From Leptolyngbya sp. Heron Island J (GTDB lineage Bacteria > Cyanobacteriota > Cyanobacteriia > Phormidesmidales > Phormidesmidaceae): a DNA stretch of 64,000 bases. This document shows, in pieces, positions 23,819-32,587 of the stretch. Every line of letters starts with the position of its first letter. Within the stretch, counting starts at the first letter, position 1. A program made the translations under genes and the position numbers. Under the pieces are notes generated by a model. That model was not told the origin of the DNA. It did no database searches and was given only the letters and a program-made list of their open reading frames with translations. Location of the stretch: contig NZ_AWNH01000112.1 in the NCBI RefSeq assembly GCF_000482245.1, positions 248,001-312,000 of the forward strand, given 5' to 3'.

Positions 23819-26800
23819 GTGTCATTGCCCATTGATGCCCCTCAAAGTGTAATAACCTCATGTTCAGCTTTAAGAACTAAAGTCGTCGAACCTATTAAAT
23901 TTAGAGAAAATTCAGGCATGGTTTTTACAGACCTTCGAGATCAATCGCTGGCTCTTCCTGTTGAAAATTCAGTATCTGTTTGCAGATTGTTTGAGTCTCA
24001 AGTTAAAAAACAATCTGCAACGTCAGCAATCGAATTTATGGGGCAAAGTTGGAGCTATCGCACCTTAAATGCTCATGCTAATCAGCTAGCTCATTATTTA
24101 CGTGAACAAGGTGTTGGCCCTGATGTTCTAGTCGGTTTATATCTTGAACGTTCTTTTGAGATGGTGGTTGGGGTACTAGCCATTCTCAAAGCAGGTGGAG
24201 CCTATGTTCCCCTAGATCCCAACTATCCCTCTGAGCGACTTGCTTGGATATTACAAGACTCTCAAGTATCTGTTCTACTCAGCCAAACATCCTTAAGTCA
24301 GAGTCTGCCAACCCATAGAGCCCATGTGGTTTGCATGGATAGTATCAATGTTACCCAGTTACCCACCGAAAATCCTCTACCGGTAACGACCACCAAAAAT
24401 TTGGCCTACGTTATATATACCTCTGGTTCCACCGGTAAGCCCAAAGGAGTTATGGTTGAACATGGGGCATTAAGTAATTTCGTACAAGGGGCCAATCGAG
24501 ATTGTGGGATCAAAAGGGCAGACCGAGTTCTCCAATTTGCCTCAATTAGCTTTGATACTGCGGTAGAAGAGATCTTTCTAACGCTAACGCAAGGGGCAAC
24601 GCTTATTTTGCGTACTTCAGATATGCTGCAGTCGGTTTCAGGATTTTTGAAGACCTGTGAAGAGCTTAAGATTACTGTCATAGATTTACCCACTGCCTTT
24701 TGGCATCAGATTTGTGCAGAACTCACTACAACAACTATCCCAAACTTGCTCCGTCTAGTGATTATTGGAGGAGAGCGGGTGCTACTTAATTGGCTGGAGG
24801 TGTGGAAAGAGCACGTTAAGCCTGAAGTTCGCTTAGTCAATGGGTATGGTCCCACAGAATCAACAGTTGTAACAACTTACTGTGAATTGATCGGTCCCCA
24901 GGCAACATCGATTCATAATGACACAGTCCCCATTGGAAAACCGTTACCCAATGTCCAGACTTATATCTTAGATAATGAGATGCAGCCCGTTGGTTCTGGG
25001 AAGGCAGGTGAACTCTACATTGGTGGGGTATGTTTAGCACGTGGTTATCTAAATCAACCTGATTTAACCAATATCAATTTTATTGAAAAAGCTTTTACTG
25101 GTAGCGAACAACAGCGGCTATATCGAACGGGTGATTTAGTGAGATGTAGAGAAGATGGGCATCTCGAATTTTTGGGTCGAGCTGATCATCAAGAAAAAAT
25201 CCGAGGTTTTCGGATTGAGCTAAATGAAATTGAGACCACCCTTGAGCAGCATCCTGCAGTTCAGGAGGCTATTGTCATTGCCAGAGAGGATGATATCGGG
25301 ATCAAGCGTCTGATTGCTTATATTGTGCAGTCTTCATCAGAGCGGTTACCAACGACCACTCTGGATACTAATCAACTGGAAGCAGAACTTATTAATCAAT
25401 GGAGACTGATTAATAATAGTGAACAGCTCAATCCCACCAAAAATAATTGGGACGACACGTTCAATATCAGCGGTTGGGTTAATAGTTACACTGGTGACCT
25501 GATTGCTGATATTGAGATGAAGGAGTGGGTCGATAATACAACATCGCGCATTTTAGAACTCAACCCCCAAAACGTATTAGAAATTGGCTGTGGCACTGGG
25601 CTGCTTCTATTTCGCATTGCACCCCATTGTCAAAGCTACTTAGGCATAGATATCTCGGAGTCCTCTTTAAATTACATTGAACAACAGTTACAGTCTCCTC
25701 AAATCCATCTTCCTCAGGTGACTCTTGAACATCGAGTAGCGGATAATTTACAGGGAATTGCCCCTGGCTCTATAGATACTGTGATCATCAATTCAGTGAT
25801 TCAATATTTTCCGAGTGTTGATTATTTGATCAATGTTTTAGAACAGACTATTAAAGTCATCAAACCGGGTGGAACTCTATTTCTTGGAGATTTGAGAAAC
25901 TATTTACTGTTAGAAATGTTTGCGACATCGGTGGAAGTAGCGCAAGCTCCTGATAATCTACCAACGGCTGAATTATTAAAGCGTATTCAACGACGACTAC
26001 ATCAGGAAGAAGAGCTCACCCTTGATCCCAAATTCTTTCTAGCACTAAAAAAGCGAATTCCCGAGATTAGTCATGTGCAAGTGTTACTAAAGCAAGGGAA
26101 ATTCCATAACGAACTAACACGATTTCGTTATGACGTTATATTGCATGTCAATGCTGAAGTGATGTCAACACCAGGTAATATCAAGACCTTAGATTGGCAA
26201 CAACAAGATTATACTGTTCAGAAAATTAAGCACTACTTAGCAGACAAAACACCTGTTGGATTACGTCTGGACAATATCCCTGATCGGCGACTATTTGAAG
26301 CAGTTCAAGCCTTAGCCTGGGTGAAACAGAGTAACTGTCCCGATACGATTACCTCACTTAAGAAGAGTCTCAACACGACATGTCAAAGTCAAGCTATCGA
26401 CCCAGAAAAATTGTGGCAACTCTCTCAAGAGATTCCCTATCATGTTTATATTGATGGCTTGGATTCAGGACCTCAGGGTACTTTTCAGGCCACATTTATC
26501 AGGTACTCATCATTAAAGGTTAGGAATTCTATGCATGGGTTAGGTACGAGCCAGCGGCCACACACCAGGACCCTACCTAATCCCTGGCATACCTATGCAA
26601 ATAATCCTCTACACAGCAAAATAACGCAAGACTTAAGAGTACAGCTCAGATCTTATTTGAAGCAACAGCTACCGACCTATATGCTGCCAGCTGCTTTTGT
26701 TTTTCTGAATAAGTTCCCTTTGACAGCTAACGGTAAAGTCAATCGTAAGGCTTTGCCTGCTCCAGACTTAGCCAGACCTGCCCTAGAGGTAGAATTCTTG

Positions 26801-28249
26801 GCACCTCGTACCCCTCTAGAGGAATCCCTGGCAGAACTCTGGTCCAAGATCCTGGAGATTCATCAGATAGGGGTCTACGACAGTTTTTTTGACTTGGGTG
26901 GAGATTCGCTACGTGTCATGCAGCTCTTTTCCCTGTTAAAAAATCGATATGCAAAAGAGATTTCCTTTACTGATTTTTTCAATAAGCCAACGATTGACTA
27001 TTTATCTAAACAGCTACAGAGTTCTGAAAGTGCATGTACGCCAACTGCAAACGAGCGGATTACACTTCAGAAACTACGACAGGAGATCGTCTTAGGCGAT
27101 GTAAATACTGGTTTAGCGAAAACTTTCTCTGGCTCTCCTCCTGCTCATTGGACAAAACCTCAAGCCATTCTCCTGACAGGAGCAACTGGATTTATTGGCA
27201 TCTCTTTGTTACATGAGCTTTTACAGCGAAGTGATGCAACTATTTATTGTTTGATTAGGACCCAAAGCCTGACACAGGCTTACCAAAAACTGCGTTATGC
27301 GGCACAACGATATTTACCCGGTGTTGCTTTTTCCTATTCCAGGATAGTTCCATTAATCGGTGATTTAGCTCGTCCCATACTGGGGCTATCAACAGAACAA
27401 TTTCATAGTATTGCGGAGATAGTGGATACTATCTATCACAGTGCAGCTAATGTTAATTTACTGTATCCATTGTCCAGCTTAAAAGCCGTTAATATTATTG
27501 GTACCAAATCAATTCTCAAGCTGGCAGCCCATAGGAAATTGAAACCGGTTCACTTTGTCTCTACTTTGGATGTCTTTGAGCCACTGGCTGCTACTGGAGT
27601 TAATGTCATCTATGAATCGGACGATATTGATCAAGGGGATGCCATTACCGGCGGCTATGCCCAGAGTAAATGGGTTGCAGAGAAACTGGTGACTGCCGCC
27701 GCCGCGCAAGGGATTCCCACCTGTATCTACCGACTTGGTATGGTTACCGGTCACTCCTATACAGGGATTGGTAACCCAGAGGATTTATTAAGCCGATTGA
27801 TCAAAAGTTTGATTCAAATTGGTATATCACCTGAGCTTAATTTACAAATTGATATGACTCCTGTAGATTATGTTAGTCAGGCGATTGTTTACTTATCTAC
27901 CCAGCTCAAGTCATTTAATAGAGCATTCCATTTAGTCAATCCCACAGCATTTCATTTAGAAGATCTGGTTGAAACTATCAACCAACTAGGTCTCCCCATT
28001 CAGTCTGCTTCTTATAACCACTGGGTAACTCTCTTAAAGAATCGTTCTCATGCCCTGAGCCCTCTTTGCGAAGTTGTCACTGAAACAATTGCGCATGAGC
28101 AAATTACACGGTTAGAGATGTGGCTTTCTGGTACACAGCTTTTCAATTGTAATAATACACTCACTGGATTGGAAGGCAGTGCGATCAGCTGTCCAAACAA
28201 CAATCATACTCTCCTAAGAAAGTATCTGGATAACTTGAGTTTTCGGTAA
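23819..28249 (+). CDS. Single-module NRPS: adenylation, methyltransferase, carrier, terminal reductase
   Basis: 1476-aa enzyme. Adenylation domain about residues 55-480: A3 YTSGSTGKPKG near 198, A5 NGYGPTES near 342, A7 YRTGDL near 434, A8 RGFRIELNEIE near 460. A methyltransferase is inserted between A8 and A10, with its SAM motif VLEIGCGTG near 585. A10 NGKVNRKAL is near 966. The carrier domain has DLGGDSLRVM near 1024. The terminal thioester-reductase has TGATGFIG near 1118 and the catalytic YAQSKWVAEKL near 1279. No condensation domain is present. Expected chemistry: activate one amino acid, N-methylate it on the carrier, and release it as aldehyde or alcohol with NAD(P)H. By alignment to GrsA the pocket reads D235, T236, E239, D278, I299, G301, G322, V330, V331; the acidic residues hint at a basic or amine side chain, but this is a weak inference. 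The start is GTG 23819; ATG 23918 is an alternative. Confidence 0.9.
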   Translation: MSLPIDAPQSVITSCSALRTKVVEPIKFRENSGMVFTDLRDQSLALPVENSVSVCRLFESQVKKQSATSAIEFMGQSWSYRTLNAHANQLAHYLREQGVGPDVLVGLYLERSFEMVVGVLAILKAGGAYVPLDPNYPSERLAWILQDSQVSVLLSQTSLSQSLPTHRAHVVCMDSINVTQLPTENPLPVTTTKNLAYVIYTSGSTGKPKGVMVEHGALSNFVQGANRDCGIKRADRVLQFASISFDTAVEEIFLTLTQGATLILRTSDMLQSVSGFLKTCEELKITVIDLPTAFWHQICAELTTTTIPNLLRLVIIGGERVLLNWLEVWKEHVKPEVRLVNGYGPTESTVVTTYCELIGPQATSIHNDTVPIGKPLPNVQTYILDNEMQPVGSGKAGELYIGGVCLARGYLNQPDLTNINFIEKAFTGSEQQRLYRTGDLVRCREDGHLEFLGRADHQEKIRGFRIELNEIETTLEQHPAVQEAIVIAREDDIGIKRLIAYIVQSSSERLPTTTLDTNQLEAELINQWRLINNSEQLNPTKNNWDDTFNISGWVNSYTGDLIADIEMKEWVDNTTSRILELNPQNVLEIGCGTGLLLFRIAPHCQSYLGIDISESSLNYIEQQLQSPQIHLPQVTLEHRVADNLQGIAPGSIDTVIINSVIQYFPSVDYLINVLEQTIKVIKPGGTLFLGDLRNYLLLEMFATSVEVAQAPDNLPTAELLKRIQRRLHQEEELTLDPKFFLALKKRIPEISHVQVLLKQGKFHNELTRFRYDVILHVNAEVMSTPGNIKTLDWQQQDYTVQKIKHYLADKTPVGLRLDNIPDRRLFEAVQALAWVKQSNCPDTITSLKKSLNTTCQSQAIDPEKLWQLSQEIPYHVYIDGLDSGPQGTFQATFIRYSSLKVRNSMHGLGTSQRPHTRTLPNPWHTYANNPLHSKITQDLRVQLRSYLKQQLPTYMLPAAFVFLNKFPLTANGKVNRKALPAPDLARPALEVEFLAPRTPLEESLAELWSKILEIHQIGVYDSFFDLGGDSLRVMQLFSLLKNRYAKEISFTDFFNKPTIDYLSKQLQSSESACTPTANERITLQKLRQEIVLGDVNTGLAKTFSGSPPAHWTKPQAILLTGATGFIGISLLHELLQRSDATIYCLIRTQSLTQAYQKLRYAAQRYLPGVAFSYSRIVPLIGDLARPILGLSTEQFHSIAEIVDTIYHSAANVNLLYPLSSLKAVNIIGTKSILKLAAHRKLKPVHFVSTLDVFEPLAATGVNVIYESDDIDQGDAITGGYAQSKWVAEKLVTAAAAQGIPTCIYRLGMVTGHSYTGIGNPEDLLSRLIKSLIQIGISPELNLQIDMTPVDYVSQAIVYLSTQLKSFNRAFHLVNPTAFHLEDLVETINQLGLPIQSASYNHWVTLLKNRSHALSPLCEVVTETIAHEQITRLEMWLSGTQLFNCNNTLTGLEGSAISCPNNNHTLLRKYLDNLSFR

Positions 28250-28344
28250 GTAGTATCTAATCAGACGCTTAATCAAGCCCTAGTCTTGGTTGTAAACAAC
28301 TACTGAAAACAACTTAATTGTCATCCTTAGCCCTATCCTAATCA

Positions 28345-29079
28345 ATGGCTGATATTATCACCGAAACTCTGAACGTTGGTTCTCAACAACAAGTTGAATC
28401 GCTATTGAAAAAATATTTTTCTAAGAAAAATCTCAATAGCAAACAGAAAATAGAACAACTATTCCAGGAGTTCAGAAGTTGTCACTATGTTTGCCTCAAG
28501 GAATTTATCCCTTTGGTATTACAAACTGGTGCGCGAGGAGAAACTTCTGAACTCTTGAATCACTTTTCATCAAATGTTTCAGTGACCGATGCTTCTACAA
28601 ATAAAGCACCGCTAATAGCTCAAGTTTCTCAATTGGATATTGAACATAGAAGTATCATTATACCGGCACTGTACTACTCACAGTCTTTACGCCAATTACT
28701 CTTGCTGATTACTGCTAATGAAGTCATCCCTTACAGTTCTAAGCATGGAGGGATATCTATTACACATGTCAATGAAGCAGATTATTATGAAAATTGGCAG
28801 TGTGTAGAGCATGCATATCAGCTAGTTTGGTTTATTGAAGCTCCCAAAGTAGATGCTGGTGGGGCGTTTGAATTTATCAAAAGGTCTACCGATCAAGACT
28901 TGAGCATCAATCATGATATATCGGAAAATCAAATTCAGCGAAGATATCACAAGTCAAGAGATGTTTTCCTACTGAAAGCTGATGCCTGTCTCCAGCGATT
29001 TGCTCCATTTAATCAGGGGGCAGAAAGAGTCGTTATAACTATGAACTTTGCTAATGGTCCTAGGTTAGGAAAAATTTAG
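28345..29079 (+). CDS. ArpA/HalD-like 2OG-oxygenase-fold protein lacking the iron ligands
   Basis: 244-aa soluble protein. The C-terminal half matches my recollection of the ArpA/HalD branch of Fe(II)/2-oxoglutarate enzymes: a strand-turn with YQLVWFIEAPKVDAGGAFEF, then a jelly-roll end RDVFLLKADACLQRFAP...RVVITMNFA. In that branch the iron ligands lie in a W-H-x-D-type motif just before the first segment and in LHRV within the second. Here the first reads ENWQCVEHAY and the second CLQRF, so His, Asp and distal His all appear replaced. It may be a pseudo-enzyme or use other chemistry. It lies 95 bases after the NRPS-like gene and 29 bases before a SET gene. The assignment is by eye, so the fold itself is uncertain. 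Confidence 0.55.
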   Translation: MADIITETLNVGSQQQVESLLKKYFSKKNLNSKQKIEQLFQEFRSCHYVCLKEFIPLVLQTGARGETSELLNHFSSNVSVTDASTNKAPLIAQVSQLDIEHRSIIIPALYYSQSLRQLLLLITANEVIPYSSKHGGISITHVNEADYYENWQCVEHAYQLVWFIEAPKVDAGGAFEFIKRSTDQDLSINHDISENQIQRRYHKSRDVFLLKADACLQRFAPFNQGAERVVITMNFANGPRLGKI

Positions 29080-29108
29080 AGCATTTGACCTTATTTACCT
29101 AAAAAAAA

Positions 29109-29606
29109 ATGAGAATACAACCCAGAAAGTCGCTGATTAAAATAGAGAGTAGAGATTGGCTAACTAATGCAGTGATTGCCACAGATACGATCAAAGCCCG
29201 CACGGTGATCTATCAAAGCCAGGAGTTTTTGATTTTACCTAAACCCAACTACCAAACGGTTCAAATAGCTGACAATGCTCATATCATAGATCATGTCTTT
29301 GCTAATCTGAATCATCATTGTTCCCCAAATACCTTTATCGATGTCTCTGATTTCTCTCTTGTTGCTGAAAGAGATATAGAACAGGGAGAAGAGTTAACAT
29401 TTGCTTATTTTACTACAGAAGTAAAGCTCGATAGGCCATTTTATTGCCAGTGCAATTCATCCAACTGTATTGGTAATATCCTAGGTGCGTCTCAAATGCC
29501 CTTTAAATCTCTAATGTCTTATTCTCTTAGTCATCATGTTTTGAATTTAACTAAATTTGCAAGTTCAGAGCGGTATCAAGCTTATGAATTAGGGCCGCAG
29601 CATTAA
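29109..29606 (+). CDS. SET-domain protein methyltransferase with post-SET motif
   Basis: 165-aa SET protein. Seen: NHHCSPNTFID near residue 68 (the NHxCxPN SAM-binding motif), AERDIEQGEELTFAYF near residue 92 (catalytic tyrosine region), and a post-SET Cys cluster CQCNSSNC near residue 115. This size and layout are those of small bacterial SET enzymes, which methylate lysine side chains in proteins. It is the last gene of the NRPS-like locus, 29 bases after the ArpA-like gene, and is followed by a strong terminator. Its substrate is unknown: a partner protein, a carrier-bound amino acid or a free amino acid are possible. Confidence 0.82.
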   Translation: MRIQPRKSLIKIESRDWLTNAVIATDTIKARTVIYQSQEFLILPKPNYQTVQIADNAHIIDHVFANLNHHCSPNTFIDVSDFSLVAERDIEQGEELTFAYFTTEVKLDRPFYCQCNSSNCIGNILGASQMPFKSLMSYSLSHHVLNLTKFASSERYQAYELGPQH

Positions 29607-29767
29607 GTTTGCCTGTGATGGACGTCAAGGCATGCGTTAGAAATCTGTGGTGCATGAACCTATTGGACTGGTTAACATGTGTATTGAGCGACCTGATGAG
29701 AATATTCGGGTGACAAAGCTAACAGCCATCACATCGTTAATCATTGATTAGTCAGGGCATCCTAAAG

Positions 29768-29822
29768 TACAGTTTGAAGTCTGACACCCCTACCCAGGTG
29801 AGATGTTAGACTTCAAACTGTA
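29768..29822 (+). terminator. Terminator of the NRPS/ArpA-like/SET locus
   Basis: Perfect 15-bp inverted repeat: TACAGTTTGAAGTCT (29768-29782) and AGACTTCAAACTGTA (29808-29822), followed by TTTGTTT. It lies 162 bases after the SET stop and just before the next gene, closing the three-gene unit. Confidence 0.8.
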
Positions 29823-29857: not shown

Positions 29858-32587
29858 ATGTCAAACGACGTTAAGGTTAATAGGGGATACCAGGTTCAAG
29901 GCATACCCTTAAAGTTGGCATTAATTGTGCCATTTGTTCTGCAGATTTTTACCGCTGTAGGGTTAGTCGGATATCTCTCTTTTCGGAATGGCCAAAAGGC
30001 AGTTAATCAGCTGGCCTTAAAGCTGAGTGCAGAGATCGGCGACCGAGTTGATCAGCATCTAGATGCTTATTTGGAATTACCTCATCAGCTGGGTGATATT
30101 AGCGTTGATGCCTTAACAACGGGGTTGCTGGATATTAAAGATTTTGACCGTACGGGTCGTTATCTATGGAAACAAGCCCAGGTACATGAGAATTTTACAT
30201 TTCTTGGATATTACTTGCAAACGGGTGAAGGCGTTGCTGCCCAGCGTTGGCCCCCTGGTTCTGGGGTTAACATTGTGGAGCATTCCCTAGCAGATGGCAA
30301 AGACTATAACTATGCTACTGATAGTCAAGGAAGCCGTACTGATTTGCTTGATGCGACCGAGTACTATGCTCCTGCAGATGATTGGTATGTAGAAGCGGTC
30401 AAGGCTGGGAAACCAACCTGGAGTAGTGTTTATACAGCAGATGGGTTTGAAGATTATGTGGCAGCATCTGCGACGTTTCCCATTTATGACCAAGCTCAGG
30501 CTATTTTAGGCGTCTTTGCAGTTGATTTAATTTTAACCGATATCAGCAATTTTCTAAAGGAGTTAGATATTAGCCCCCATGGTAAGGTGACCATCATTGA
30601 ACGAACTGGTCTGCTTATTGGTAATTCTGTTTCTATACCGACATATCGCATAGTAGATGGCGAAGCTGAGCGGTTGCATATCCTTGATAGTGAAGATATG
30701 TCGGTTCAAGCAACAGCTCAATTTTTGACAACAGAATTTGGTGATTTTGAAAATATTGCGGAGAATCAGCAACTCGAGTTTCTGATTGATGGCTCTCGAC
30801 AGTTTGTACAGGTTGTACCTTGGCGTGATGACTATGGCTTGGACTGGTTAGTTATTGTTACTATTCCAGAATCTGACTTTATGGGGCAGATCAATGCCAA
30901 TACTCGCAATACGATTGTGCTGTGTATTGCAGCGCTGATAATTGCAACTTTACTCGGAATTTTGACTTCAAGGTGGATTACGTCTCCAATTAATCGTTTA
31001 AATCTGGCGAGTCAGGCTATTGCTGCCGGGGATCTTGATCAAGCCCTTGAGGTCAAGGGGCTTCGAGAACTGCGTGGGTTATCTTCTGCGTTCAATCAAA
31101 TGGCCGAACAAATTAAAGACTCCTTTGAGATGTTGGAAACCCGTGTAGCTGAGCGCACCGCGCAGCTGGCAGAAGCTAAGGAACGAGCAGATTCTGCTAA
31201 CCTGGCCAAAAGTGAGTTTTTGGCTAACATGAGCCATGAACTGAGAACGCCGCTAAACGGTATTCTAGGCTACTCTCAAATCTTGCAGTTTCAAAAAAAT
31301 CGTCCTGAAAAAGATCGTAAAAGTATTGAAACTATTGCTCAATGTGGTAATCATCTTTTAACGCTAATTAATGACGTTTTAGATATTTCTAAAATTGAGG
31401 CTCGTAAGCTTGAACTCAATCCTAAACCGTTTCACTTTCCATCTTTTTTACAAGGTGTGGTCGAAATTTGTCGTATTCGAGCCGAGCAGAAAAATCTGCC
31501 GCTTGTGTTTGAGGCTCTCGATACGTTGCCTCCAGGTATTGTTGCAGATGAAAAACGTCTGCGCCAGGTTTTGTTAAATCTGATTGGTAACGCGGTTAAG
31601 TTTACACACACAGGTAGTGTCCATCTCAGAGTTGCGACTCAATCTGATCCTGATGTTGCAACTCTGACACGTCTGCATTTTGCTATTGAAGATACTGGCA
31701 TTGGTATTGATGCTGATAACCTTGGCAAGATCTTTGAGCCGTTTGAGCAGACGGATAATACTAAACATGTGATTGAAGGAACCGGGTTAGGCCTTGCCAT
31801 CAGTCAAAAAATCATAGAACTTATGGATAGCCGTATCCAGGTTAAAAGCACGCTGGGTATGGGCAGTACCTTTGAGTTCACGGTTTCCTTTCCCCTGGCA
31901 GAGGACTGGATACAGGCTGATCTGCAACATCAGGAGCTGGGTCAGCTGATTGGCTATGAGGGCGGACGTAGAAAAATTTTAGTCGTTGATGATCGTTGGG
32001 AAAATCGATCTGTGATCGTCAATTTACTTGAACCGCTTGGCTTTGAACTCCTTGAGGCCCAAGATGGTGAGGATGGATTAACCAAGGCACAAGCATTTTT
32101 ACCAGACTTAATCGTTACGGATTTATTGATGCCTAACCTGAATGGTTATGAATTCCTCAAACAGCTTCGGGATCTAGCTGAGTTTCAATCAGTACCCATC
32201 ATTGCGTCTTCAGCCCATTTATCTGGTATTGAACGGCAAGACTGTACTGAGGCTGGATTTAATAGCTTCTTAGCTAAGCCGATCAAAGCACCCGAATTGA
32301 TCGGGCAGCTGCAGCAACTTCTAAAGCTAGATTGGCGATACGACCTCAAATCTGAAAAGCAATCGTCTGACATGGCATCGACGATGATTGTACCTGCATC
32401 GGACGTGCTCATACCGCTTTATGAAGCTGCTGAAAGAGGTTATATTGCAGATATTCAAGATGAGATTGCTCGACTTCGGCAGCTCAGTCCGGATTACACA
32501 ATTTTTGTTGATAAATTGCTCAAATTAGTTGATGAGTTTGATGATGAAGGAATTGTTCAACTGGTAAAACCCCATATAAACTTTTAA
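29858..32587 (+). CDS. Hybrid sensor histidine kinase/response regulator with dCache sensor
   Basis: 909-aa membrane protein. A transmembrane helix (about 19-40), a large extracytoplasmic dCache-type sensor (about 45-345) and a second helix (about 348-368) are followed by HAMP (to about 425) and a coiled coil. HisKA has phospho-acceptor His460 in [11 protein letters not shown]. HATPase_c has [15 protein letters not shown] and GTGLGLAI. A receiver domain starts near residue 706 (KILVVDD) with Asp755 in IVTDLLMP. About 80 residues follow the receiver without a recognised Hpt motif. The next plus-strand gene is also a receiver-kinase, so a phosphorelay between them is possible. Confidence 0.92.

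Follow-up and report, generated by a model that had tools for sequence, protein, structure and literature searches.

To our knowledge, cyanobacteria have few known chemical signals for which a dedicated receptor is described. One of the described systems closest to the locus reported here, the Ham/Pvf/Mgo group, is proteobacterial. HamD is a stand-alone NRPS of adenylation, carrier and reductase domains (A-T-R), with no condensation domain, and the reduced amino acid that it makes serves as a diffusible quorum signal (PMC5878181). On the receptor side, amino-acid dCache sensors hold the ligand carboxylate with an Arg and its amine with an Asp; in amine sensors the Asp is kept and the Arg lost (PMC10104139). 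CqsR of Vibrio cholerae, a dCache kinase, binds the 2-amino alcohols ethanolamine, L-alaninol and serinol (PMC12410723).

Here we describe a locus within a 64,000-nucleotide stretch of DNA (the window) from Leptolyngbya sp. Heron Island J, a cyanobacterium with an assembly of 8.06 Mb. We see an even chance that it encodes a signal synthase together with its own receptor, the signal being an N-methylated, reduced basic amino acid.

Organization of the locus and the NRPS-like protein

The open reading frames reported in a first-pass annotation for an NRPS, a HalD/BesD-fold protein and a small SET protein were all confirmed (Table 1). The A-MT-PCP-reductase architecture proposed there for the first is borne out by Pfam and NCBIfam domain matches and by intact core motifs (A3, A5, A7, A8, A10, NMT motif I, LGGDS, TGATGFIG and YAQSK). 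Its methyltransferase match, residues 587-687, lies after A8, and the Pfam and NCBIfam matches include no condensation domain, making it a condensation-free reductive NRPS of the A-(NMT)-T-R kind. Such domains load, N-methylate and reduce their substrate. The adenylated amino acid would be methylated on its alpha-nitrogen while on the carrier, and the reductase would release it as an N-methyl amino aldehyde or, if reduction takes place twice, as a 2-amino alcohol, the product chemistry that had been expected and that we continue to support.

Table 1. Features of the locus, in window coordinates
Feature	Position	Strand	Basis or remark
NRPS-like protein, 1476 aa, A-NMT-PCP-thioester reductase, without condensation domain	23819..28249	+	Domain matches, motifs, orthologues
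Adenylation domain, residues about 58-525	23990..25393	+	AMP-binding 58-411, AMP-binding_C 470-525
Inserted N-methyltransferase domain, about residues 530-800	25406..26218	+	Motif VLEIGCGTG at 586
Carrier domain, residues 1003-1063	26825..27007	+	PP-binding; LGGDS at 1026
Thioester reductase domain, residues 1117-1473	27167..28237	+	TIGR01746 above cut-off; TGATGFIG, YAQSK intact
Protein of HalD/BesD fold, 244 aa, without the iron ligands	28345..29079	+	PF23169, comparison with HalD, predicted model
BurB-like SET protein of 165 aa, probably a methyltransferase of small molecules	29109..29606	+	PF00856, BurB match
Perfect 15-bp inverted repeat, terminator-like hairpin	29768..29822	.	Unique in genome
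Hybrid histidine kinase, 909 aa, TM-dCache-TM-HAMP-HisKA-HATPase-receiver	29858..32587	+	Conserved NRPS partner
dCache sensor region, about residues 43-347	29984..30898	+	D174 replaces carboxylate-binding Arg; amine-binding Asp kept (D223)
Receiver-HisKA-HATPase protein, 439 aa	32724..34043	+	Syntenic downstream of kinase in G015, G019

The adenylation code of the NRPS is DTEDIGGVVK; the code is DAEDIGTVVK in its genus-mates and in L198, DIEDVGTVVK in L192 and DTENIGTIVK in L124 and L126. Elsewhere in the phylum, A-T-R enzymes carry the codes DLFNNALTYK, which we take to be an Ala code, and DILQLGMIWK. The latter has been reported for Gly-activating domains (PMC12283262). Although a literature search retrieved no Lys-code strings, the closest measured code found to that of the window is DVEDIGGVEK, from the Planktothrix ApnA A1 domains that load Arg and Lys (PMC5311044). 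The lysine-like substrate suggested in the first-pass annotation is plausible by this comparison; judged by its code, the NRPS would load a basic amino acid, most likely Lys or Arg.

The same annotation had these genes form a plus-strand unit closed by a 15-bp terminator. The hairpin is genuine: its arms, TACAGTTTGAAGTCT (29768-29782 and 29808-29822), match exactly, against a chance expectation of 0.02 such matches for the window as a whole, the predicted fold has an energy of -34.9 kcal/mol (z -6.45), and a search of the whole genome yielded no second copy. It does not, however, end the unit, for the gene for a hybrid histidine kinase starts just 35 bp 3' of it on the same strand. The comparative data below make this kinase part of the system, so that, while the gene anatomy first described stands, the unit was drawn one gene too short and lacked the conserved neighbour of the NRPS.

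Conservation of the NRPS-kinase pairing

Genus-mates G015 and G013 keep both the NRPS (54-56% identical) and the kinase (73-74%). In each, the NRPS is followed by a methyltransferase of the NNMT/PNMT/TEMT family and then by the orthologous kinase, and in G015 the synteny continues beyond the kinase. G019 has its NRPS on one contig and the methyltransferase-kinase pair on another. Since the window's genome has no counterpart of this methyltransferase, the HalD-like and SET genes fill its slot here. We also considered whether the hairpin is conserved along with the system and rejected this, as none was seen between methyltransferase and kinase in the genus-mates.

The pairing extends well beyond the genus. 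We searched a sample of 386 cyanobacterial genomes with an A-T-R protein, scoring no more than the top two candidates in each genome, which makes the numbers of systems lower bounds, and chose 14 stand-alone reading frames by length alone. A same-strand histidine kinase lies within 2.3 kb of 13 of them, the exception being L223; in L222 two ORFs intervene. Among other reductase-ended NRPSs, a control drawn mainly from one family, the figure is one in 14 (Fisher p = 1e-5). When all condensation-free enzymes with readable flanks are taken, the window's family included, 25 of 28 have a kinase so placed (p = 3e-7), although members of that family were found partly through the kinase, so that the 14 frames chosen by length give the cleaner test. 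Apparent frameshifts, whether draft-assembly error or decay, split the A-T-R gene in L024, L195, L206 and L224. A literature search, which took in few of the subscription journals, turned up no earlier description of this pairing in cyanobacteria.

Nine of ten linked kinases scanned, a set that does not include the large kinases of L219/L220, are dCache hybrids, some of the dCache matches being weak; L218 gives none. Other sensors also occur beside A-MT-T-R enzymes: GAF with TPR-like repeats in L113 and, in L112 (4702-7362, genome G368), an amino-acid-permease-like N-terminus that replaces dCache in a kinase next to an A-MT-T-R enzyme of Gly-like code.

The sensor and its candidate ligand

In the window kinase the dCache_1AA motif YxxxxRxWY is represented by YAPADDWY, with Asp in place of the Arg. 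Comparison with dCache_1AM, leaving aside the R103/D133 insertion, finds the aromatic pair and the final Asp present and the carboxylate Arg absent. The carboxylate-clamp Arg is missing from all 11 linked sensors but from only 15 of 37 unlinked sensors in the window's family (Fisher p = 4e-4); the amine-binding Asp is kept in ten of the 11 and is Glu in L192. Because all linked sensors fall within one Arg-less clade of the kinase tree, which they share with unlinked members, the loss is a single evolutionary event, and we rejected it as independent evidence; it is a matter of consistency. Chemically, the two halves fit: an amino acid released by a reductase has no carboxylate for such an Arg to hold.

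The recurrence of this enzyme-sensor pairing across cyanobacteria suggests a chemical signalling system that has not been described before. In the window, the product would be exported or would diffuse, and the dCache hybrid kinase would detect it outside the cytoplasm and signal through its own receiver and the receiver-kinase that follows. A separate small methyltransferase, SET here and of the NNMT/PNMT/TEMT family in the genus-mates, would modify the amino acid or the product. More broadly, and with a confidence that stops a little short of even, we propose that signalling modules of this kind form a widespread family in cyanobacteria: a condensation-free reductive NRPS would produce an amino acid in reduced and sometimes N-methylated form, and the dCache hybrid kinase encoded next to it would have this product as its dedicated ligand. 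The codes would be Gly-, Ala- or basic-type according to lineage, with diversity arising through changes of the A code and through small tailoring enzymes swapped in one slot. Because many genomes encode a candidate synthase beside a candidate receptor, and the substrate codes can be read, ligands could be predicted and tested directly.

Gene adjacency could also mean no more than that the kinase regulates the NRPS. The locus would then be an ordinary natural-product cluster, switched on by a kinase that senses an environmental cue. Its product, whether an amino aldehyde, a pyrazine, a protease inhibitor or a metallophore, would have its action elsewhere and would not be what the kinase binds. 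Regulators commonly adjoin biosynthetic genes, the kinases paired with A-MT-T-R enzymes in L112 and L113 have unrelated sensors, and in the window the kinase lies two genes from the NRPS behind a strong hairpin, which we count against a synthase-receptor pair. On the other hand, the pairing is specific to condensation-free A-T-R enzymes, and several loci comprise little more than A-T-R and one or more kinases, with no evident transporter or other biosynthetic genes between or beside them. Furthermore, divergence of the A domain tracks that of the sensor (r 0.78, p 2e-4) more than that of the kinase core (r 0.32) over 19 pairs, a co-variation to which shared ancestry contributes and in which the kinase-core segment was cut crudely. 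We regard the ordinary cluster as a serious possibility, if a somewhat doubtful one.

The SET protein

The best solved relative of the small SET protein, whose presence is confirmed by its match to PF00856, is BurB, at 53.5 bits, with the runner-up chain at 26.6; BurB is an enzyme that S-methylates free methionine (PMC12542666). Being closest to BurB, the protein does not point to protein lysine. A protein-lysine methyltransferase is disfavoured, histone enzymes being far more distant, and the first-pass use of the SET gene as a lysine-methylating clue loses force with it; by homology, the protein is probably a small-molecule methyltransferase.

Relatives in cyanobacteria adjoin an A-T-R NRPS (L024), larger NRPS genes (L029, L031) and a HalD-type gene (L021, L028), and in L023 and L025 an unclassified protein with an ExxH motif, which may be a haem-oxygenase-like diiron enzyme. 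These neighbourhoods fit a family of small-molecule tailoring enzymes, a probable role that extends BurB-like SET proteins more widely among natural-product loci.

The ExxH protein, which has no Pfam match, occurs with SET and a dCache kinase, and with no NRPS, in L023 (6884-11110), L025 (5007-9545) and L130 (4466-9503); SET is intact in the first two, and in L130 a broken copy with internal stops lies beside the ExxH protein. It is possible that this protein is an alternative synthase for the same sensor family. In L031 (4257-11476, a Rhizonema MAG) a row consists of an NRPS, an amidinotransferase-looking ORF with a weak arginine-deiminase-family match, the SET protein and an ABC transporter. 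In Bacteroidota a BurB-like SET protein forms a conserved trio with an ATP-grasp protein (D-Ala-D-Ala-ligase-like) and a protein of about 475 aa that also matches SET (L034 9887-12993, and L036, L037, L039, L041, L042, L045, L047, L048 and L050); in several genomes the trio is followed by another conserved ORF, which has about 300 aa and may be related to transporters.

The match to BurB raises a second alternative, in which S-methylmethionine is first made by the SET protein, and this sulfonium amino acid, rather than Lys or Arg, is what the acidic A pocket loads. The pocket residues E239 and D278 would suit any cation, and the PF01234 family that occupies the slot in genus-mates includes thioether S-methyltransferases. 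We nevertheless consider it unlikely, given how closely the window code matches measured Arg/Lys codes and that the SET gene is local and swappable, E239-containing codes being found also in A-T-R loci without SET (L124, L126, L192 and L198).

The HalD/BesD-fold protein

The protein encoded between NRPS and SET matches PF23169 (HalD) at 114.7 bits, and its predicted model, though built on only five sequences, overlays HalD with a TM of 0.82 and also BesD-type structures. The nearest structures bind Lys or Orn. The cupin fold is accompanied by no His-x-Gly/Asp...His iron site: at the positions occupied by H, D/G and H in HalD and in cyanobacterial homologues (L021, L028, L022 and L026), both His are replaced by Gln (Q152 and Q217) and the Asp/Gly by V154. 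R218 and R228 are kept. With all three metal ligands changed, we reject an active 2OG halogenase or hydroxylase, and with it a working oxygenase; the protein, on these replacements, should not be active as an Fe/2OG enzyme. As its reading frame is intact, a pseudoenzyme or relic is likelier than an active oxygenase. In the proposed system it would be a binding or accessory pseudoenzyme, or else a relic. What the locus shows directly is a HalD-fold protein retained without its metal site.

A plasmid search with this protein gave distant matches only (23-25% identity). The nearest relatives of the HalD-like and SET proteins form an adjacent pair in L021/L028 (30% and 47% identical, respectively), in which the oxygenase keeps its HxD...H site, so the two genes may travel together. 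Separately, L022 (9392-13458, genome G134) has a HalD-type protein with an intact, halogenase-type HWG beside a Haem_oxygenas_2 protein, a BesC-like pairing, and an amidinotransferase-looking ORF nearby; it is possibly a cyanobacterial chloro-amino-acid cluster.

The three-gene set had been put forward as a unit that might recur. We did not find the exact trio again in the searches made and rejected it as one conserved unit, since its parts recur as separate pairs: HalD-SET (L018/L021, L028), NRPS-SET (L024) and, widely, NRPS-kinase. We consider it very improbable that a modified lysine product is built by the three enzymes, an active 2OG oxygenase among them, with the kinase unrelated. The BesD/HalD fold and the nearest structures, which bind Lys or Orn, speak for this reading; against it, the metal site is gone, the trio is unique in those searches, and it is the kinase that is conserved beside the NRPS, not the HalD-like and SET genes.

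Comparison with known systems

Among curated NCBIfam entries the NRPS best matches MxcG, the myxochelin synthetase, and shares its reductase end, but at 811 bits it falls far below the family cut-off of 2300, lacks a condensation domain and has an added NMT domain. The HalD/BesD lysine and ornithine halogenases and hydroxylase share fold and family (PF23169) with the second protein, which unlike them has lost the metal triad. BurB, of the DMSP and malleicyprol pathways, is likewise a small SET protein, and the window protein keeps the aligned H69, Y100, R109 and T-E motif but has Gln for H138; no DMSP-pathway decarboxylase, aminotransferase or aldehyde dehydrogenase is present among the ORFs of the window unit.

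CqsR offers the nearest parallel for the sensor: a platform Asp holds its ligand with no carboxylate-binding Arg, a likeness to the window kinase drawn from sequence features alone. The accessible part of PMC12410723 reports no pairing of CqsR with an A-T-R gene. For the proposed mechanism, the nearest working precedent is the Ham/Pvf/Mgo group of proteobacteria (HamD, PvfC and MgoA, producing valdiazen and relatives), by virtue of the condensation-free A-T-R enzyme HamD. The locus lies outside this group, as no diiron N-oxygenase was recognized among the ORFs of its unit; it also lacks the other ham genes, and its NRPS has an NMT domain. Finally, whereas PMC10194917 describes the receptor of the Pvf system as yet to be found, the locus encodes a candidate sensor kinase along with its NRPS.
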